Shown here: in pieces, positions 26,695 through 46,118 of the stretch
Layout of the letters: each line of letters begins with the position of its first letter
How positions within the stretch are numbered: the stretch's first letter is position 1
Assembly: GCA_947306125.1 (NCBI GenBank)
Contig: CAMZFO010000001.1
Span: 67,153 to 114,683, forward strand
DNA from: an uncultured Clostridia bacterium
Lineage (GTDB): Bacteria > Bacillota > Clostridia > Christensenellales > CAG-138
Reading direction: 5' to 3'
DNA: 47,531 nucleotides
Program-made: the position numbers and the translations under genes
The notes under the pieces: model-generated
Database searches by the model: none
Seen by the model: only the letters and a program-made list of their open reading frames with translations
What the model was told of the DNA's origin: nothing

Positions 26695-27852
26695 TTATTG
26701 CTTTATACCGGTTTTTTTCGCGGCTGCGGAGGCGACCGCGGCGGTCAGGGGAACTGCGAGTATGAGCCCAACGGAGCCCGCGGCGGACCTTATAAGCTCC
26801 ATTATCGTATCATCGTTGTTGATGAGCTGGTAGGGCTGCATACCGGCGGCGGCCATGATTATCATGAGATTCAGCGAGGCGCCGACGAAAGCCAGTATGA
26901 GCGTGTTGGTCATGGTCCCTATCATATCCCGCCCTATGTTCATGCCCGAGCGGAACAGCTCCCCGCGCGAGAGCCCGGAGTCGACCTCGTGAAGCTCGTT
27001 CACGGAGGAGGCTATGCTCATGGCGACGTCCATGACGGCTCCGAGGGACGAAATGATTATGCCCGAAACGAAGAGCCCGCGCACGTTGAGCGTTATGCCC
27101 TCGAGGGTGCGGGATTCATCGAGCAGCCACTCCGCCTCGTCCATCGTCATGCCCGAAACGCGTGCAATGCTGCCGCAGATCAGCGCAAAAGCGCCCGAAA
27201 CGAGCACGCAGAGCGCCGTGCCGAGCATGGCGGAGACCGTTTTACGGGTGACGCCGCCGAGCAGGGTGAACGAGAAAACCGTTATGAACACGCAGACTAT
27301 GAGCGTCAGGGGTATCGCGGGGAAGCCCTTGAGCCACATGGGTATCAGGAAAAGTATTATCGCGGCAAGCGAATACGCGAGCCCGAACAGGCTCATGACG
27401 CCCTTCTTCCTGCCGACCGTTATCGCGGCTGCGGCAAAAATAAGGACTATGGCCGCGGCGAGCCATGTGAAATCATAATTGACTATGCTCATCTGATAGC
27501 CGGGCTCGCGCGAATCGGAGGTGATGGTGACCGTGAGCACCGTGCCCGCCTTGGCGACCTTTTCGTGCATGGGGCCCAAATAGTTGTTCACGTTCATTAC
27601 GTCGCCCTTATACCTGCCCGTGAGCACCGTCACGCAGAGCGACTGCGAGCCGCGGAGCGCGTTTTCGGTCTCGGGATCGACCTCGTAGCTGTCACGGAGC
27701 ACTTGTGTGACCCGCACGAGCTCGTACTCGATGGTATAATAGGGGTTCTGCCCGGCGGGCTTCGCCCTTCTTCCGAGGAACGCGCCTATAACGAGCGCGG
27801 CAAGGCATATTACGACCGCCGTTATACTGACTATACTGTTCTTGCTTTTCAT
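26695..27852 (-). CDS. YibE/F-like multi-TM membrane protein
   Basis: 'VTVLTGRYKGDVMNVNNYLG', 'GVMSLFGLAYSLAAI', 'ISSLGAVMDVAMSIASSVNEL', 'LAFVGASLNLMII'. Confidence 0.85.
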   Translation of the reverse strand: MKSKNSIVSITAVVICLAALVIGAFLGRRAKPAGQNPYYTIEYELVRVTQVLRDSYEVDPETENALRGSQSLCVTVLTGRYKGDVMNVNNYLGPMHEKVAKAGTVLTVTITSDSREPGYQMSIVNYDFTWLAAAIVLIFAAAAITVGRKKGVMSLFGLAYSLAAIILFLIPMWLKGFPAIPLTLIVCVFITVFSFTLLGGVTRKTVSAMLGTALCVLVSGAFALICGSIARVSGMTMDEAEWLLDESRTLEGITLNVRGLFVSGIIISSLGAVMDVAMSIASSVNELHEVDSGLSRGELFRSGMNIGRDMIGTMTNTLILAFVGASLNLMIIMAAAGMQPYQLINNDDTIMELIRSAAGSVGLILAVPLTAAVASAAAKKTGIKQ

Positions 27853-27877: not shown

Positions 27878-27906
27878 TCGGGGACTGCCGCAAAGGGCAG
27901 TCCCCG
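27878..27906 (-). terminator. Terminator for the giant PHP-protein gene
   Basis: CGGGGACTGCC-gcaaa-GGGCAGTCCCCG 3' of the stop at 27921; T-rich on the minus strand (CCCCGAATTTT). Confidence 0.65.
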
Positions 27907-27920
27907 ATGCTGTTTTTTAC

Positions 27921-30900
27921 TCAGCGAAGGTTCATGGTGTGACGCAGATACAGGAGCGCATCGGTCATATCCACGGCGCCGTCATGGTTGATATCCATCA
28001 TGGCGACTATCTCGGGAGTGTACTGATCGAGATGCATCACGTAGCGCATTATCATGAGCACGTCGGCCGAGGTGTTGTCGCCGTCGCCGTTAAGATCGGG
28101 ATAGGGATTGGCGGTGGGGATGACCTCGGCGCGGTTCCTGACGCGGATGCGCGGGATGTAACCGCCCTCCGCGCTCTCCGTGTCGACCGTGATGGAAGCG
28201 AGACCCGTCGCCTCAACGTGATCGCCGACGTGGATATCGATGACGTAATCGCTCATGATATAACCGTCGATGAATACGCGCGCGACGTCGGTGCCGTCGT
28301 TGACCATTATGGTCTCGAGAGCGCCGTCGGAGGAATAGCCGAGGCTTTCGACCGTGCCGCTGACCTTGATGAGCAGACCGGTGTAATCGGTGCTCATGGC
28401 CTGCGCCGCAGTGAGCTCGAGAGGCTCGATGATCCTCTCCTCGTGGCCCTCGACGGCCTCTATCTTGGTGACTACCAGCTCGCGCTCGCCGTTATAGGCG
28501 CCGAGCACGTCGGTGCACCTGACGTACTGGCCGATATGGAAATCGCCCGCAACGGGGAACAGGTTGATGCCCGCGGTATCGTCCTGCACGTAGATGCAGT
28601 CAAAGAACGCGGTATCCTGATCGTAACCGGAAGCGTTGGAGGTGACGTAGCCTTCAACGGTGTACTTGCCGCCGGGCTCGGCCGCGTTGACCTCCTCGAT
28701 CGGGGTGATCGTGGGCTCGGGGATGAGCTTGTCGATTATGTTCATTACGATCTGGTAATTGCTGTTCTGCAGGGTGGTGGCGTTCTCGATCTCCACCTTC
28801 ACCTCGAACGTGGAGAAGAAGGTCACGCCGGAGGTCAGCAGCCAGCCGCCGCCCGCGAGATCCTCAAGGGACATCGCGACGACCTCGCCCATGGGAACGA
28901 CTACCGTATCGCTGTCATAATCGGGAACGTAGCTGGAGGAGCCGCCGAAGTCGGCGGTGTAGTTGGCGCCCCATGTGGTGGGATAGCCCACGATAACGGG
29001 TATCGCGCCTTCGCCCGGGATGATGGGCGCGCCGTTGTAGCAGGAGAAGGAGTTGTTGGTGGTCTCAAGCACGTCCTTCAGCACCCACACGGGCTCGCCG
29101 TTCCAGGTGTAGTTGTAGTTCTCCTCGCGGGTGAAGTACAGACGGTAAGCCTCGTTTGCCTTCTCCTCGTTATCTACCACTATGCCGTTCGCAATGGCAG
29201 TGTCGGAGCCCACGGCCGCGAGTATCGCATTGGTTATGGTATGCGCCTGCTCCGCGATATTCTCGGGATTGCCGCGGTCGGACTTGGAGCAGATTATGAG
29301 GTTGCCGCCCGCCGCCGCATACTGCGCGATGGCGTCAAGCTCGGCCTGAGTATAAAGGTTGGCCTCGCCGACGTTTGCCCAGCCGTTATAGGGAACGGTG
29401 AGAACGAGGAGCGCGTAATCCTTTATGTTCTCATAGGTGAGCTGACCGGCGCGGACGTAATTGGTGCGGATCGCGTTCTGAGCGCAGAGCTCAATGAACG
29501 CGGCGTCACTGCCAGCGTAATTGCCGGAAACGTAGAAGTTGACGTGGCCTGCGTCGATGCCGATATCAAGGAGCTCGGTGGGATCCAGAACGTCCATCTC
29601 ATAGGAGTAGGTGAACTGCATCGCGGTATCGCCGAGGAAGCCCGTGACGACTACGACGAACTTCTGATTGCCGAGGCTTACGGGAGTGAAGTTATAGGTG
29701 AGCTGCAGCTCGGAATCCGAAGCGATCACGCCCGCGTTCTCGATAACGTCAAGGAGCACGGGCTCGTTCTGCCCGACGGTGCTGTAGTAGCTGACGGTGG
29801 AGATGACGAAATCCTCCGCCTCATAATCGTAGAGGGTGGTGGTGAAGGTCATTTCCTCGTCCTTAACGGGTATGACGGTCTCGGTGGTCACGTCGGAGAT
29901 GCCGACCTTGGATACGTCGCCGACCCAGACGGGAGCGGTGACGGCGATATCCTTATCCGGCTGATCCACCCTTATGAAGTAATAGGAGTAATCATTGGGC
30001 AGCGTCACGTCGATCATGCCGGAGGACTCGGCGATGACCTCGGAATAGGCGTACACGCCGCCGTTGACGACGACGGATACGCGGCCGATGCTTTCGCCGT
30101 CGGGATCGTTGACGGAAACGCAGATGCGGACGGTCTCAACGGGGTTCTCCTCGTCATCGGGGATGATGGAGCCCATCACCTGATCGTTCAGGGTGTAGTA
30201 GAGCTCGAGGTTCTTATCCTCGGTGGCGTACATGGTCATGCTGCGCATGGCCTCGTAGATGCCCTGCTCGGAGAAGTCGTCGGTGATGATAACGTCGCGG
30301 GCGGTGTTGGCGTTGCCCCACTTGCCCTTGTGGTTATCCTGGTTGTTTGTGGGAGCGACGTGCCAGCCCATATCGAGAGCAAGCGTGTACTGCTCGTAGC
30401 TGGGCCAGTACGCGGAGCCGCCCACGGCGCCTTCGCCGTTGCCTACCTCGACCATCGTTATGACTCGGTCGGCGGCGACGTCGTAATAACCGAAGTTATC
30501 GAAGTTGCCGAAGGTGGTGCCGGGATGGTTGAAGGCGTGTATGGTATCGGGATACTGCTTGATAAGGTCGTAATAGGCCACAAGTCCCGCGCCGCCCTGC
30601 ACGGTGTAGGTGCTGTTCTGGCGGGAGACGATACCCACGGAATTGTAGGTGTTGATATGGCCGTACTGACCGGACCAGGTCATCTCGTAGCCGCCGATGA
30701 ATATAACGTCGTTCTGACGCTGGTTGAATTCATCGATCAGGGTGGTGTAGTTATACCACTTGGAGTGACCGTTGGCGGCGATGGTACCCGACTCGACGTT
30801 CTCGAAATCGCCGAGATCGGACTTGGAATCGAAATAGTTGGAGTGGTCGGTCACGGCAACGAAATCGACGTTCTCGCTCTCGGGAAGGCCGGTGACGTAG

Positions 30901-33900
30901 CTGTAAACGTCCTCAAGCGTGCCCGCGCCGTCGGAATACTCCGCGGTATGGGCATGGAGCTGACCGAAGTAGAAGCTGTACTGCGGCTCGCCCACGGTGA
31001 AGCTCCAGCTGTAGCTGACGGAAGCGCCGTCCGCCCTCGTGATAACCACGGTGGCGTTATACTTGCCGTCCGCAAGCTCGCCCTGATAGCTCAGGTATGC
31101 GTTATTGCCGGAAACGACGGTGCTGCCGCTTACGCCGGGAACGGTTATGACGATGGTGGGATCCGCGCCCGCGTTGGCAAATGTGACGCTGATGAAGGGC
31201 GTCTTGTCATCATAAGTCGCGGAGTTGGCCCTGGGGGTCACGGAAACTATCTGAGGCAGGTCGACGATGCTGACGACGACCTCCGCTTCGGAAGTGAGCC
31301 CGTAGATATCCTCCGCCGTGAACGTGAGCGTCATCTCCGTATTGCCGGAGGTGATGGCGGAGCCGGGGACCGCAGCCCTGTACTTGGAGTTGGTGGGATT
31401 ATAGACCATCTCGGCCTGACCGACAACGCCGCCGATATCATAGCTCATAACGACCCTCTCCACGCCGTAATCATCGGTAACGGCAATGGCGACGTCGTAA
31501 TCCACGCCTACCTCGGCGTTGAGCATGGAGCCCACGGTGATGACGGGAGCCTTGTTCTCGCCATAGTATTCGCCGCCCCTGAACTGCCAGGTGGAGGAAT
31601 ACTTGGAGAGCGCCGCCGCAAGATCGACCACCTCGCCCGGCTCTACGCAGTAATTCGTGTAGGGATAAGCGCGGTAAATGGGCATCGTTGCGCCGGTGGA
31701 GTCGGTAACGGTGGTGGAGCCGTTATCGTTATAACTGCCCAGCGTGACGTTCCTTACCATAACGTACTCGGAAAGGAGGGACTCCTTGTTTGCGAGCAGC
31801 TCGGCGAAGGTGTTGAAGCGCTGCGCGGGGATGCGGTCAGTTGAGAAGAGCTTCTCGACGGATACCGCGCTCTGGATCTGGGGAACGCCGCCGTAGGTGG
31901 TCTTTGTGGCGGTGATCTTGAGCACGTCGCCTATCGCGTAATCGTCGAGGGAGTTATACATCTGCAGACCGCAGATCTCGCCGTCAACGATATCCTCGAG
32001 TATGGCGGAATTGACGGAATCGTAATTGCCGAACCTGTAAACGAGCTGAGCTATAAGTGTGACCTCGGTGGAATCAGCGCAGGCTATGACCTCGGGAATG
32101 GTCATGACGCCCTCTCCGAAGAGCTCGGAGCCGATGGGATCGTTATAGGAGATATGCTCGGATACGCTGTTGGCGTCGGCGACGCGGAGCTGCAGGTTAT
32201 TGTAGCAGGAGACTACCGCGGCTATATCCACCGTGTCGCCCTCATTGAAGGCGATCTCGGGGAGCTTATAGATATTGACGGTGACTCCGTTCTGGGTGAT
32301 GGGAGTGCTGCCGCCGTTGTTGATCGCGCCGAGCACTGCGCCCTCAACGAATATCCTCTCGCACATATAGGCGTCGGGATCGGCGGTGAGCTGCTCCAGA
32401 GTCACTGTCTCCAGAGGCAGAGCGTTGCCGGAGGAATAGATCTTGAACACCTCGGGATCGGCCTGGTCGATACCGGAGAGCTCGGGCAGGCCCTTAAACG
32501 CGGCGCGTACGCCGGTCGCCTCAACGAGATCGCCTATCTTGACGGTCTCGTGAGCAGCGTTGAGGTAAAGATCGATACCGCCGGTCGCATCCTGAACGTA
32601 CACGTTCCTGCCCTCGACGAATATGACGACGCCGCGGACGGTCGCGGTCTCGCCCTCGGCAAGCGCCAGAGCCTCCGCGATGGGGATATAGGGCAGATCG
32701 GTCTGCACGTAATCCGCGGGGGCGCCGTTCCTGAGCTGGACGGTGGTATTATACTTGGAGGCCACGGCGTAAACGTCCACCTTATCGCCCGCGCTGACGC
32801 CGTCGGGATAGGCGGCCGCACGGTAGATGGGGATGGAAGCGCCGTTGGGATCGGTGACTATGGTGGAGCCGTTGCTGTTGTAATCGCCGAGTATGGCGTC
32901 CTTAATGACGACGCGCTCGGAAACGTAAGCGGAGATATTGTTCATCAGCTCGCTGACGGTAACGGCCTGAGCGGGGATGAGCTCCGCGGAGGTATTGAGC
33001 ACGGCTACGTTGGAAACGTTGGAGAGCTGACGCACTCCGCCGTAATCCGCGACCTCGCCGGTGACGGCGATTATCTGGCCGGGCACGTAGGACGAGATAT
33101 GGTTGAAATCATAGATCTGCAGACCGACGATCTGACCGTTCTCAACGTCCTGGAGGGAGACGGAATTGAGGCTGCCGTAGTTGCCGAACAGCATCGCCAC
33201 CTGACCCACGACGGTCTGGGTGCTGCCGGTGGACATGGCGAGCACCTGCGCGATGGTCACGCAGTCGGGATAATCGGCGGGATCGATGGGGTCTTCCACG
33301 GGCTCGGGAGGAGTGGTGGGCTCGGGCGAGGCGGTCGGGCCGGGAGACGCGACGAGCTCGACGTCCGAACCCTGCGCAACGCGCAGCTGCACGGTGTTGA
33401 AGATGCCGACGACAGCGGTCACGTTGACGGTATCGCCCTCGGCGGCGTCGACGGCGGGCATCTTATAGATATTGATGCTCGAGCCGTTCTGCATGAGGGG
33501 GGTGTTGCCGGAATTGTTGATCGCGCCGAGCACGGCTTCACGAATATAAACGCGCCTGCACATATAGGCGGCTTCGTTGGCGATTATCTGCGCAAGCGTC
33601 GCCTCGGTAAGGGGCAGCGCATTGCCGTGGGATATGATCTCGAACTGAGCGGGATCGCCCGGCTCTATATTCGAGATCTCGGGAAGGCCCTTATAGGTGC
33701 TGCGGGTACCGGTGGCTTTAACGAGATCGCCGAGGACGACGGAGGGAGCGGATTTGAAGAAGAGATCGATGCCGCCCGTCGCATCCTCAACGTAAACGTT
33801 TTTGCCGTCGATCATTGTAACGACGCCGGCGACGCATACGTTTTCGGTGTTATCGGCAAGCGCCAGCGCTTCCGCAATGGTTATGGTACCGTCAACGGGG

Positions 33901-35150
33901 CCGGGAGTTGGCTGAGGAACGGGAGTCACGACGGGGGTCTCGCCGTAAAGGGTGACGTCGGAAGAGAGCGCCACGCGGAGCTGCACGTCGTTGAACATTC
34001 CGACGGAGGCGATGACGTTGACCTCGTCGCCCTCCTCGGGCTCAACTTCGGGCATCTTATAGATGTTCACGGTGACGCCGTTCTGGGTGATGGGAGTATT
34101 GCCGGAGTTGTTGATATCGCCGAGCATGGCGTCCTCAACGAATATCCTCTCGCACATATAGGCGTTGGGATCGGCGGTGAGGGCGGCGAGGGTCACGGTC
34201 TCCAGAGGCAGCGCGTTTCCGGAGGAGAGTATGACGAACTGATCGGCATTCGAGGGATCGACGTTCTTGATCTCGGGCAGACCCTTATAGGTCGCGCGGG
34301 TACCCGTCGCCCTTATCCTGTCGCCAAGCGCCACGGTGGGAGCCGCGGTAAAGAAGACGCACATACCGGCGGTCTCATCCTGGATATAGACGTTCTTGCC
34401 GTCGACGAAGTTTACAAGACCCTCGATGCAGACGTTCTCGGTGTCGTCGGCAAGCGCCCTTGCTTCGGCAATGGTGATCGCGTCCCCTGCGGGGGGCTCT
34501 GTGGGAACGGAAGTGGGGTCGGGAGTGACCGACGAGCCGCCGCACTGCACGAAGAGATTATCAATGCGGAGCGTGCCGCCGGAGGCCACGGTATTGCCGT
34601 TCGCACTCTCCGTGTCGGTCACGGCGAAGCGGAGCACGAGGCTTTCCGCGTTATCGCAGAGCGCGGGAAGCGCGGCGGATATGCCGCCCCATGTGCCGCC
34701 CGCGAGAGCAACAGCGCCGCTCTCCGCTGCGATGAAGTTCACGCCGTCAACGCTGTAATAGAGCTTGACGTTTTTGGGGCCGGTGTTGGACGCACGGAAA
34801 TCGGCGCTCACGACGAGGCCGGAGCAGCCCGCCGCGTTCACGGTGACCGTGTAATACTTGGGGGAAGCGGCCGAAGCGTCCGCCCAGCCGTTGCTGTTCA
34901 GACCCTTGGAGCTTCCGTTGCCGGCGGCATAGGTGAATTCGATCGTGCTGTCTTCCCTTGCTACGACCGCGCCCGCGTTATTGGCGTTGGCGGAAGAAGC
35001 AACCGGCGTCTCGGACTCGAAATCCCAGGCGGCCACGGTCTCAAGCTCTTTTACGGGCACGGCGACCCTTGCAAGAGCCGAGGCGGGAACCAGCGAGATC
35101 ACCATCAATGCCGCAAGCAGCAGAGCGGAGATTCTTTTTACGCTTTTCAT
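27921..35150 (-). CDS. Giant (2409 aa) secreted multidomain protein: repeated OB-like modules, PHP/CehA-McbA-type metallophosphoesterase, DUF4350-like region, C-terminal OB, type I dockerin
   Basis: Signal peptide MKSVKRISALLLAALMVISLVPASALA; five repeats of 'xTIAEaLALAxxtENVxVxGvVxfvdGkNVYvqDaTGGidlfF'-type modules; PHP motifs 'GQLHAHTAEYSDGAG', 'VAVTDHSNYFD', 'NHPGTTFGN', 'QDNH'; terminal DLNGDGDNTSADVLMIMRYV...DINHDGAVDMTDALLYLRHTMN. Confidence 0.88.
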   Translation of the reverse strand: MKSVKRISALLLAALMVISLVPASALARVAVPVKELETVAAWDFESETPVASSANANNAGAVVAREDSTIEFTYAAGNGSSKGLNSNGWADASAASPKYYTVTVNAAGCSGLVVSADFRASNTGPKNVKLYYSVDGVNFIAAESGAVALAGGTWGGISAALPALCDNAESLVLRFAVTDTESANGNTVASGGTLRIDNLFVQCGGSSVTPDPTSVPTEPPAGDAITIAEARALADDTENVCIEGLVNFVDGKNVYIQDETAGMCVFFTAAPTVALGDRIRATGTRATYKGLPEIKNVDPSNADQFVILSSGNALPLETVTLAALTADPNAYMCERIFVEDAMLGDINNSGNTPITQNGVTVNIYKMPEVEPEEGDEVNVIASVGMFNDVQLRVALSSDVTLYGETPVVTPVPQPTPGPVDGTITIAEALALADNTENVCVAGVVTMIDGKNVYVEDATGGIDLFFKSAPSVVLGDLVKATGTRSTYKGLPEISNIEPGDPAQFEIISHGNALPLTEATLAQIIANEAAYMCRRVYIREAVLGAINNSGNTPLMQNGSSINIYKMPAVDAAEGDTVNVTAVVGIFNTVQLRVAQGSDVELVASPGPTASPEPTTPPEPVEDPIDPADYPDCVTIAQVLAMSTGSTQTVVGQVAMLFGNYGSLNSVSLQDVENGQIVGLQIYDFNHISSYVPGQIIAVTGEVADYGGVRQLSNVSNVAVLNTSAELIPAQAVTVSELMNNISAYVSERVVIKDAILGDYNSNGSTIVTDPNGASIPIYRAAAYPDGVSAGDKVDVYAVASKYNTTVQLRNGAPADYVQTDLPYIPIAEALALAEGETATVRGVVIFVEGRNVYVQDATGGIDLYLNAAHETVKIGDLVEATGVRAAFKGLPELSGIDQADPEVFKIYSSGNALPLETVTLEQLTADPDAYMCERIFVEGAVLGAINNGGSTPITQNGVTVNIYKLPEIAFNEGDTVDIAAVVSCYNNLQLRVADANSVSEHISYNDPIGSELFGEGVMTIPEVIACADSTEVTLIAQLVYRFGNYDSVNSAILEDIVDGEICGLQMYNSLDDYAIGDVLKITATKTTYGGVPQIQSAVSVEKLFSTDRIPAQRFNTFAELLANKESLLSEYVMVRNVTLGSYNDNGSTTVTDSTGATMPIYRAYPYTNYCVEPGEVVDLAAALSKYSSTWQFRGGEYYGENKAPVITVGSMLNAEVGVDYDVAIAVTDDYGVERVVMSYDIGGVVGQAEMVYNPTNSKYRAAVPGSAITSGNTEMTLTFTAEDIYGLTSEAEVVVSIVDLPQIVSVTPRANSATYDDKTPFISVTFANAGADPTIVITVPGVSGSTVVSGNNAYLSYQGELADGKYNATVVITRADGASVSYSWSFTVGEPQYSFYFGQLHAHTAEYSDGAGTLEDVYSYVTGLPESENVDFVAVTDHSNYFDSKSDLGDFENVESGTIAANGHSKWYNYTTLIDEFNQRQNDVIFIGGYEMTWSGQYGHINTYNSVGIVSRQNSTYTVQGGAGLVAYYDLIKQYPDTIHAFNHPGTTFGNFDNFGYYDVAADRVITMVEVGNGEGAVGGSAYWPSYEQYTLALDMGWHVAPTNNQDNHKGKWGNANTARDVIITDDFSEQGIYEAMRSMTMYATEDKNLELYYTLNDQVMGSIIPDDEENPVETVRICVSVNDPDGESIGRVSVVVNGGVYAYSEVIAESSGMIDVTLPNDYSYYFIRVDQPDKDIAVTAPVWVGDVSKVGISDVTTETVIPVKDEEMTFTTTLYDYEAEDFVISTVSYYSTVGQNEPVLLDVIENAGVIASDSELQLTYNFTPVSLGNQKFVVVVTGFLGDTAMQFTYSYEMDVLDPTELLDIGIDAGHVNFYVSGNYAGSDAAFIELCAQNAIRTNYVRAGQLTYENIKDYALLVLTVPYNGWANVGEANLYTQAELDAIAQYAAAGGNLIICSKSDRGNPENIAEQAHTITNAILAAVGSDTAIANGIVVDNEEKANEAYRLYFTREENYNYTWNGEPVWVLKDVLETTNNSFSCYNGAPIIPGEGAIPVIVGYPTTWGANYTADFGGSSSYVPDYDSDTVVVPMGEVVAMSLEDLAGGGWLLTSGVTFFSTFEVKVEIENATTLQNSNYQIVMNIIDKLIPEPTITPIEEVNAAEPGGKYTVEGYVTSNASGYDQDTAFFDCIYVQDDTAGINLFPVAGDFHIGQYVRCTDVLGAYNGERELVVTKIEAVEGHEERIIEPLELTAAQAMSTDYTGLLIKVSGTVESLGYSSDGALETIMVNDGTDVARVFIDGYIMSDYVIDIHVGDHVEATGLASITVDTESAEGGYIPRIRVRNRAEVIPTANPYPDLNGDGDNTSADVLMIMRYVMHLDQYTPEIVAMMDINHDGAVDMTDALLYLRHTMNLR
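27924..28103 (-). other. Type I dockerin-like domain
   Basis: Duplicated Ca-binding loops DLNGDGDNTSADV and DINHDGAVDMTDA, each followed by a helix. Confidence 0.82.
30180..30985 (-). other. PHP metallophosphoesterase domain (approximate bounds)
   Basis: HAH, D, TDH, E, H and D-x-H residues present in order. Confidence 0.75.
31560..32108 (-). repeat. OB-like module B2
   Basis: 'VMTIPEVIACADSTEVTLIAQLVYRFGNYDSVNSAILEDIVDGEICGLQMYN...'; approximate bounds. Confidence 0.7.
32150..32694 (-). repeat. OB-like module A3
   Basis: 'YIPIAEALALAEGETATVRGVVIFVEGRNVYVQDATGGIDLYL...'; approximate bounds. Confidence 0.75.
32695..33270 (-). repeat. OB-like module B1
   Basis: 'CVTIAQVLAMSTGSTQTVVGQVAMLFGNYGSLNSVSLQDVENGQIVGLQIYD...'; approximate bounds. 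Confidence 0.7.
33350..33886 (-). repeat. OB-like module A2
   Basis: 'ITIAEALALADNTENVCVAGVVTMIDGKNVYVEDATGGIDLFF...'; approximate bounds. Confidence 0.75.
33942..34482 (-). repeat. OB-like module A1
   Basis: 'ITIAEARALADDTENVCIEGLVNFVDGKNVYIQDETAGMCVFF...'; approximate bounds. Confidence 0.75.
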
Positions 35151-35409
35151 TGGTTTCCTCCTGATAATATTTTTCGGCGCTTTTTTATGCGCACAGTTTT
35201 ACACCTTAATAATACCACAAAGGAACTCTCGGCGCTATATGAAATTTGAAATTCGGGGTCGATTTTTTACCGATATGCAAGCGGAGCGGCCGGAAGATCT
35301 TTTTAACGCGCCTCTTAACGAACTGCAAACATAAACGACCCTTCGGTCGGCTTCGCCGCCGGCTCCCCTTACACAGTGGAACCTTGTGCCGCGCGCGGCC
35401 CTTAATCCC

Positions 35410-44283: not shown

Positions 44284-44444
44284 GGCGGTAACGACGCTGC
44301 CTTAAAAGATCATTCTATCGTCACAGCCGCGACATTGAACGGATGTGCTTCGCAGCTTATAATATCCCCGACGATCCCGCGGGGGATATTATCGCAATTC
44401 AGGGAAAACGGCTCTGCTGCCGGGAAAGGTTTTTGATACTGAAA

Positions 44445-46118
44445 ATGAAGAAGATAGCCGCAATACTGCTCTCGATACTGCTTATCGCGTCCCTTGCCGC
44501 CTGCGGCGGTAAGGGAACGGATCCCGCCGACCCGCAGAACACGGAGAATAACGGCTCCGATGGCTCCTCGGCGGACGCCGCGACGGATTCCTCCGTGAGC
44601 GCGGAGGAGGTCACGGGAGAATTCCTGATGCTCACCGCCGACGGGCATTATTCGCAGGAGGGCTCGAAATACGTCATCACCTCCGCGGGCACTTACACCA
44701 TGCGCGGCGCGCTCGACGGCCAGATAGTCGTTTCCGCGGGCGAATCCGAGGAGGTCGTGCTCGAGCTTTCCGGCGTGACCATCAACAATTCCTCCGACTC
44801 CCCCATAAAGATACTCTCGGCGGACAAGGTCGAGATCTCAGCCAAGAAGGGCACGGGCAACGTCATAAACGACAAGCGTCCGGTAAAATCGGCGGAGGAC
44901 GACAGCATGGGAGAAGCCGCGATATACGCCAAGGCCGACCTGAAGCTCAAGGGCAAGGGCACGCTCGTCGTGAACGCTTCCTATAATAACGGCGTGCACA
45001 CCACCAAGGATCTTACCGTCAAGAACCTCTCGCTCAAGGTGACCGCATACAATAACGCCCTGAAGGGCAACAACTCCATAACCATCAAGAGCGGCACGGT
45101 CGTTGCCGTCTCCACCAACGGCGACGGCTTGAAAACGACCTCGAGCGACCTGAGCAAGTCCGGCAATATCCGCGGAGACGTCGTTATCTCCGGCGGCAGC
45201 CTGGCGGTTTACGCGGCGGGCGACGGCATCCAGACGGCGCACGATTTCATTATGAAGGCCGAGGACGGAGCCTCCCCCAATATCACGATATTCACCGGCT
45301 CCTACAGCGGCTATACGGCGGCGGATTCCTCTGCGAGCTCCTTTAAGGGAGTCAAGGCGGACGACGCGATGGATATTTCCGCGGGCGTTATAAGCATTTC
45401 GAGTTTTGACGACGGTCTCAACGCCAATTACGGCACTTCGCTCGAATGCGGCGGAGTCGGCACGGGCAATATCAGCATTTCCGGCGGCAGCGTGACCATG
45501 ACCGTCTATTCCCCCGAGGGCAAGACCGGCGGCGGAAAGACGGGGCCCGGCGGCCGCGGACATCACGGCCATCAGCAGGCCGTGCCCGGCGCGGACGGCA
45601 TACATGCGGACGGCGAGCTCAACATCTCCGGAGGCACTTTAGAGCTCGACAGCGCGTATGAGGGGCTTGAGGCGAACGTGATAAACATCTCCGGCGGCAC
45701 TACCAGGATCACAGCCGTCGACGACGGCGTGAACGCCTGCAAGGGGCAGGCTTCGCCGCTCGTAAACGTTACGGGAGGCTTCCTCGACGTTTCGGTCGCT
45801 CCGAACGGCGACGTCGACGGTATCGACTCCAACGGCTCCTACACCCAGTCCGGCGGCGTGGTCATCACCCGCGGCCCCAAAAGCACCATGGCGGCGGCGA
45901 TAGACGCGGAGGGCGGCGTGCGCGTTTCCGGCGGCACGCTCATTGCGCTCGGCGCGGGCAGCATCGGCATAGAGGGGAACGTGAAGCAGCTCTCGCTCGA
46001 GCTCCATTCGGAGGGCGCTCATAAGCTCAAGGTGAACGGCGTCAGCTACGATCTCACGAACGCATATGCCTACGGGCAGACCTTGGCGGTAAGCGATACC
46101 GAGGTCACGGGAGAATAA
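44445..46118 (+). CDS. Carbohydrate-binding beta-helix lipoprotein (Cthe_2159-like)
   Basis: Lipobox LLIASLAAC; 'YVITSAGTYTMRGALDGQIVVSAGESEEVVLELSGVTINNSSDSPIKILSADKVEISAKKGTGNVIND' and repeated 'ISGGT' rungs. Confidence 0.8.
   Translation: MKKIAAILLSILLIASLAACGGKGTDPADPQNTENNGSDGSSADAATDSSVSAEEVTGEFLMLTADGHYSQEGSKYVITSAGTYTMRGALDGQIVVSAGESEEVVLELSGVTINNSSDSPIKILSADKVEISAKKGTGNVINDKRPVKSAEDDSMGEAAIYAKADLKLKGKGTLVVNASYNNGVHTTKDLTVKNLSLKVTAYNNALKGNNSITIKSGTVVAVSTNGDGLKTTSSDLSKSGNIRGDVVISGGSLAVYAAGDGIQTAHDFIMKAEDGASPNITIFTGSYSGYTAADSSASSFKGVKADDAMDISAGVISISSFDDGLNANYGTSLECGGVGTGNISISGGSVTMTVYSPEGKTGGGKTGPGGRGHHGHQQAVPGADGIHADGELNISGGTLELDSAYEGLEANVINISGGTTRITAVDDGVNACKGQASPLVNVTGGFLDVSVAPNGDVDGIDSNGSYTQSGGVVITRGPKSTMAAAIDAEGGVRVSGGTLIALGAGSIGIEGNVKQLSLELHSEGAHKLKVNGVSYDLTNAYAYGQTLAVSDTEVTGE

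Follow-up and report, generated by a model that had tools for sequence, protein, structure and literature searches.

A dockerin-bearing secreted PHP protein and its YibE/F neighbor: a putative phosphoesterase of the clostridial cell surface

The DNA analyzed here (47,531 nucleotides of a rumen-type bacterium, hereafter the window) encodes on its minus strand, at positions 27921–35150, a secreted protein of 2,409 amino acids (P0001), whose combination of repeated OB folds, a PHP domain, and a dockerin raises the question of what such a giant protein may hydrolyze, and with which partners. A preliminary description made from the sequence had proposed a giant secreted ORF at this place, and its coordinates proved exact: the frame is intact, opens with an ATG, and contains no internal stop. 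The counterpart in a Christensenella sp. UBA1214 MAG (L007) is collinear and 73% identical over 2,376 codons, with a dN of about 0.21, a dS of about 0.81, and a dN/dS ratio of about 0.26, which indicates that the gene evolves under purifying selection. This collinear match and ratio, together with the recurrence of the core of the protein in all of 80 related loci, establish it as a real gene. Two long antisense ORFs (27939–31844 and 32154–35249, plus strand; 1,301 and 1,031 amino acids) were rejected as shadow frames opposite the selected gene. The core is present once in the source genome. Elsewhere in the window, the product of 44343–46118 (plus strand) contains a Cthe_2159 carbohydrate-binding domain (E-value 1.7e−65), and is another polysaccharide-related gene product. 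In P0001, a signal peptide (MKSVKRISALLLAALMVISLVPASALA, residues 1–27; 35070–35150, minus strand), already recognized in the preliminary description and directly visible in the sequence, with a K/R-rich start, a hydrophobic stretch, and an ALA cleavage motif typical of Sec export, is followed by a CBM4/22-like jelly roll, five tandem-OB modules, two Ig domains, the PHP domain, an Ig/CARDB-like region, a GATase/DUF4350-like domain, a sixth tandem-OB module, and a type I dockerin.

By searching GTDB species genomes with the PHP region as query, we identified 188 relatives and kept 80 loci, 69 of them distant. Residues 1202–2350 are conserved, collinear, and approximately 42% identical in the 69 distant clostridial relatives (loci cut by contig ends aside), and define a core that recurs in 80 of 80 loci; these relatives are not independent samples, and most loci come from Oscillospiraceae and their relatives. 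The N-terminal part is variable, with zero to five detectable tandem-OB modules or other domains, and N-terminal OB modules were undetected in many family members. The C-terminal anchors vary as well: SLH domains are found in 25 of 62 tails and dockerins in 10, and many others are of the sortase type or transmembrane. Such swapping of anchors implies that surface attachment is important. The dockerin is the local solution, an anchor specific to this lineage and not a hallmark of the family. It also agrees with the earlier proposal of a cell-surface or complex-docked enzyme. In one relative (L085), a single polypeptide combines three LTDs, an Endonuclease I domain (E-value 6e−42), one OB module, the same core, and SLH; this fusion of Endonuclease I to the core was found only once. 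In another (L138:5834–12115, minus strand), the PHP-core gene carries an N-terminal LTD, is split into two ORFs, with the interruption between core-model positions 527 and 556, and has no YibE/F gene nearby. A plasmid search returned only distant CehA/McbA-type proteins, and a literature search for PHP domains associated with dockerins found nothing beyond an unrelated expression table. Judging from these comparisons, P0001 is a member of an unnamed, widespread clostridial family of cell-surface PHP enzymes.

The core opens with two Ig-like domains (residues 1202–1384; 30999–31547, minus strand), where a single Ig-like region had previously been noted before the PHP domain; they show weak CopC/Big_13 matches and β-strands in the AlphaFold (AF2) model, and are kept in distant members. 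The CehA/McbA-type PHP domain follows (residues 1390–1640; 30231–30983, minus strand). It contains nine residues, H1399, H1401, D1407, H1436, E1489, H1498, H1542, D1605, and H1607, which, from what is known of PHP enzymes, we take to be the ligands of a trinuclear metal center. Not one of them varies among 44 aligned relatives, and they are also kept in a sister family described below and in the far relatives L137, L138, and L170. The metal-ligand motifs, reported intact in the preliminary description, are thus both present and conserved, and on this evidence the predicted site seems neither disordered nor inactivated. The family model NF038032 (CehA/McbA) matched at C1:97074–98126 over positions 2–314 of 315, end to end across the PHP domain and the following Ig region, with a marginal score (81.4 bits for a cut-off of 80); hmmscan of full-length P0001 did not list it. 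The C-terminal part of this model corresponds to an Ig/CARDB-like region (residues 1641–1855; 29586–30230, minus strand), in which relative L138 shows a CARDB match. The Pfam PHP model (PF02811) scored 17.8 bits, below its gathering cut-off of 26.4, and when the PHP alignment was compared by hhalign with canonical members, only the first two motifs aligned. A profile search of the PHP region against the PDB gave no match, no solved structure being close, and a Foldseek search with the model of the entire core found only proteins of multiple Ig or β-sandwich domains (complement, GH2, macroglobulin), leaving the PHP fold without independent confirmation. P0001 is thus best described, by sequence, as carrying a divergent PHP domain of the CehA/McbA class.

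The part of P0001 that precedes the core consists of a jelly roll and five OB modules. At its N-terminus, the region previously seen as β-sandwich-like (residues 37–205; 34536–35042, minus strand) is indeed a sandwich, which can now be assigned by AlphaFold and Foldseek to a jelly roll with a CBM4/CBM22-like fold (matches to 4xun, 2y6j, 3p6b, and other CBM4/22 structures); a CBM_4_9 match (PF02018) in the far relative L137 supports this assignment. A module HMM then finds five repeats of about 180 residues, in agreement with the five OB-like modules of the preliminary description, at residues 222–400 (33951–34487), 420–598 (33357–33893), 627–815 (32706–33272), 819–997 (32160–32696), and 1013–1197 (31560–32114), all on the minus strand. 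Module 3 also matches the OB region of ExeM/NucH (residues 675–735, E-value 2.2e−8), and module 5 shows a weak DUF5689 match. The AlphaFold model of module 1 consists of two consecutive five-stranded OB folds (pLDDT about 98); by homology among the modules, P0001 would carry ten OB folds before the catalytic part and two in the C-terminal module. The best Foldseek matches of module 1 in the PDB are HIN-200 domains (E-values 5e−6 to 1e−4, TM-scores of about 0.35–0.4 on the target), with which it shares approximately 10% identity and no visible sequence relation. HIN-200 domains are tandem-OB proteins that bind double-stranded DNA. On these results, the repeats consist of OB folds and not of ordinary carbohydrate-binding or Ig folds. 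The OB modules of P0001 are strongly acidic (net charge −9 to −18), but we dropped this as an argument against nucleic acids, since the Endonuclease I domains of L085 and of the source genome are equally acidic.

On the other side of the PHP domain, a GATase-like domain (ThuA/GIFT/DUF4350-like, residues 1856–2140; 28731–29585, minus strand) shows an α/β pattern in the AF2 model. In relative L138, this domain matches GIFT (36.1 bits, above the cut-off of 27.2), ThuA, and DUF4350 (24.4 bits), so that its earlier description as DUF4350-like is reasonable, even though the profile search reported no DUF4350 match (PF14258, cut-off 30.4) in P0001 itself. The C-terminal OB-like domain of the preliminary description is likewise an OB structure, but a paired one: this tandem-OB module (residues 2146–2345; 28116–28715, minus strand) scores above the cut-off for DUF5689 (31.3 bits), lies within the conserved core, and is its most conserved OB part. 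The protein ends, as had been proposed, with a dockerin, of type I (residues 2351–2409; 27924–28100, minus strand; PF00404 E-value 8.9e−9, 35.9 bits for a cut-off of 22.9; PDB 1ohz, E-value 5e−4), in which two calcium-loop repeats, DLNGDGDNTSAD and DINHDGAVDMTD, can be read directly and are both intact. The source genome contains 48 dockerin and 6 cohesin matches, three of the latter within one ORF, a small scaffoldin. Dockerin and cohesins thus coexist in one genome. The same genome also encodes, on contig C53 (L176:2548–5151, minus strand), an 868-residue secreted Endonuclease I with a C-terminal dockerin; no Endonuclease I match (PF04231) was found within P0001. Because of this second enzyme, P0001 and a dockerin-borne nuclease could share one scaffold. 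The nuclease gene adjoins a gene for a 682-residue dockerin protein. Two secreted LTD proteins of the source genome (L177:150–3134 and L178:2254–4617) have C-terminal halves that look CotH-like by eye.

Which partner might such an enzyme have? On the same strand, 68 bp downstream of the P0001 gene, lies a gene for a YibE/F-family membrane protein of 385 residues (26695–27852, minus strand), a full member of its family (PF07907, E-value 5e−77, 259 bits for a cut-off of 27.2). Between the two genes, a GC-rich perfect inverted repeat of 12 bp (27878–27907), has only a poor T tail on the minus strand, which makes a role as terminator or attenuator uncertain; this predicted hairpin counts against taking co-transcription as given. 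The PHP query alone had retrieved the 80 loci, which were then scanned for YibE/F; the gene was present at 55 of them, in three arrangements: tandem downstream (31 loci), divergent upstream (23), and YibE-first (one, L085). The YibE/F gene is nearly always the immediate neighbor (one exception lies 3.2 kb away, in L016). When only the 46 relatives flanked by 2 kb or more on each side are considered, it is adjacent in 38 and absent in 8. No other neighbor of the core gene recurs in more than five distant loci, and the pair of PHP and YibE/F genes is repeated in two far families (L137 and L170). This conserved gene pair is new here and, with the family-wide core and the status of the dockerin as a lineage-specific anchor, adds to what had been described before, since all of these lie beyond the coordinates given there or beyond the window itself. 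Of 120 genomes from the phylum, only 32 contain YibE/F, and many genomes have it but lack the PHP core. Genome-level co-occurrence of the core and YibE/F is weak at the phylum level, since YibE/F is also found in other contexts and matches to the core model are often partial. Adjacency is therefore the stronger evidence for a link between the two.

Away from the PHP core, YibE/F genes adjoin an alkaline phosphatase gene in three loci (L116, L117, and L120), lie near genes for secreted calcineurin-type enzymes in others (L121/L136, L112/L135, and L159/L171), and also have PHP (L101) and PhoU proteins as neighbors. However, outside the PHP family the YibE/F loci with a phosphoesterase next door are in the minority (about 10 of approximately 56), and YibE/F is therefore not exclusive to phosphoesterases. 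Metal regulators and transporters are also represented among 143 ORFs neighboring YibE/F (Fur, 6; DtxR, 2; ZIP, 2; FeoB, 2; nickel insertion, 3). In five loci (L099, L103, L104, L105, and L109), a phosphate/metal trio recurs, in which YibE/F is joined by a regulator of the Fur family and a gene with a PhoU domain, the latter Na/Pi-cotransporter-like in L140. YibE/F proteins possess nearly invariant acidic residues (D275, E286, D309, and E352), which would be compatible with cation transport, although this is only suggestive. The papers searched for YibE/F (PF07907) gave neither a function nor a link to secreted phosphoesterases. On the basis of adjacency, we regard a functional coupling of YibE/F to the PHP enzyme as very likely; a coupling through metal is a possibility that we hold with some reserve, and one through phosphate or a reaction product is more doubtful still.

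Clues to the substrate come mainly from relatives. One secreted protein of 1,558 residues (L136:7465–12141, minus strand) combines a GATase-like domain, homologous to that of the core, with PGA_cap, 5′-nucleotidase, and metallophosphoesterase domains, and its gene lies two genes away from a YibE/F gene. A sister enzyme of about 700 residues, made of PHP, Ig, and GATase-like domains, was found in five genomes of four families (L126–L130, L172, and L173); in all five its gene directly follows that of an ABC substrate-binding protein, and permease genes come next wherever the downstream region is visible. The nearest PDB entries to this binding protein are 7c14/7c0f (7e−56), followed by UgpB (1.7e−35). 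We take 7c0f/7c14 to be the Thermus dinucleotide-binding protein, the PDB table giving only "sugar-binding protein". A U3G (dinucleotide) binding protein of Thermus thermophilus has been described as a relative of UgpB (PMC12718374), and the paired OB region has been shown to be essential for the nuclease activity of ExeM (PMC6085458). Together, these clues converge on phosphodiesters and lean toward nucleic acids, but glycerophosphodiesters may also be considered because UgpB-type proteins bind them. The phosphodiester substrates of the preliminary description thus receive indirect support, from the Endonuclease I fusion, the phosphoesterase neighbors of the partner gene, and the UgpB-class importer beside the sister enzyme.

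The reading that we prefer, in which P0001 would be a dockerin-bearing, secreted, metal-dependent phosphoesterase likely acting on nucleic-acid fragments with YibE/F as its partner, bears out the preliminary inference of a surface-docked phosphodiesterase as the best one, and stands as a whole at about even confidence. Its parts differ in strength: P0001 is very probably a surface hydrolase and the chemistry of its PHP domain is probably that of a phosphoesterase, whereas a nucleic acid or nucleotide is its substrate with roughly balanced chances. The chief competitor keeps the chemistry and the docking unchanged but takes the substrate to be glycerophosphodiester polymers or headgroups, such as wall teichoic acid, lipoteichoic acid fragments, or phosphoglycans of neighboring rumen bacteria. 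The sister importer does belong to the neighborhood of UgpB, which includes glycerol-phosphate and glycerophosphodiester binders, the N-terminal domain is CBM4/22-like, and the many dockerin proteins of the genome would fit polysaccharide breakdown; however, the binding protein is closest to the Thermus protein and not to UgpB, the OB modules are related to those of extracellular nucleases, Endonuclease I is fused to the core in L085, and the GATase-like domain is fused to a 5′-nucleotidase in L136. We consider this alternative rather unlikely, yet the most serious one. More improbable is a non-phosphoester activity (on an ester, carbamate, or amide), with the phosphate links coming from the neighbors only. 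CehA/McbA, named after carbaryl hydrolases, is indeed the best family model, but none of the neighbors suggests a carboxyl-ester substrate, and YibE/F adjoins several unrelated classes of phosphoesterases; the UgpB-class importer and the Endonuclease I fusion argue in the same direction.

The adjacency of YibE/F might also be a historical linkage inherited in Clostridia, devoid of functional meaning, given that most loci come from Oscillospiraceae and relatives, that the gene is missing in 8 of 46 well-flanked loci, and that many genomes have YibE/F without the PHP core. A merely inherited linkage is nevertheless hard to reconcile with an adjacency kept in three arrangements while all other neighbors were shuffled, with the recurrence of the pair in the far families L137 and L170, and with the association of YibE/F with non-homologous phosphoesterases, and we give it little credence. 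Least credible of all is a catalytically inert adhesin that binds DNA or glycans: binding and spacer domains do make up most of the mass of P0001, but dozens of relatives keep all nine ligands, together with the motifs around them, despite the variation of the binding modules.

In the preferred phosphoesterase scenario, P0001 would be exported and dock through its dockerin to a cohesin-bearing scaffoldin, the tandem-OB modules would hold the substrate, a polymer or an oligomer, and phosphodiester or phosphomonoester bonds would be hydrolyzed at the trinuclear PHP center. The likeliest substrates would be nucleic-acid fragments released by co-displayed endonucleases, with salvage of the products. 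YibE/F, in the membrane, would assist the exported enzyme, either with a supply of divalent metal or by handling the released phosphate. A broader version of this scenario, which we put forward only tentatively, makes YibE/F a membrane partner of secreted phosphoesterases in general (a metal-loading exporter, as a second route beside TerC, or a product uptake system) and P0001 the catalytic half of a module foraging nucleic acids or phosphodiesters that certain gut bacteria would add to their cellulosome, together with the dockerin-borne Endonuclease I. Most PHP enzymes known so far are intracellular; in this case, the PHP domain is the predicted catalytic part of a surface family spread across many clostridial families, with interchangeable anchors. 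The presence in one genome of P0001 and an Endonuclease I, both with dockerins, suggests that cellulosome-like complexes may forage phosphorus or nucleic acids, beyond plant polysaccharides. Moreover, the conserved YibE/F neighbor places a widespread, uncharacterized membrane family in a concrete setting where its role can be tested.

P0001 can be compared with several known systems. It resembles the CehA/McbA metallohydrolases (NF038032) by the end-to-end match over the PHP and Ig regions and by its intact ligands. CehA and McbA, the founders of this family, are carbamate (carbaryl) hydrolases and not phosphoesterases, whereas P0001 is a 2,409-residue multidomain surface protein with a core of 1,150 residues and a YibE/F partner. 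With the extracellular nucleases ExeM, NucH, and Xds it shares secretion, the paired OB region, and, in some of its relatives, LTDs; it lacks, however, their EEP nuclease domain, the PHP domain occupying the catalytic place, and it matches their model NF033681 only in the OB part, with 33.4 bits for a cut-off of 300. Endonuclease I (EndA/Vvn/Dns) is fused to the same core in L085 and carries a dockerin in the source genome, but has a different fold and is not part of P0001. The likeness to HIN-200 proteins (IFI16, AIM2-like) concerns the tandem OB arrangement and is one of fold only, the modules of P0001 being acidic. Finally, the TerC proteins MeeF and MeeY are membrane proteins that supply metal to exported metalloenzymes (PMC10550928), and we propose YibE/F as a possible analog by function, with no claim of homology; the presence of Fur, DtxR, ZIP, and FeoB families among the neighbors of YibE/F is in line with this analogy, metal transport by YibE/F being putative.
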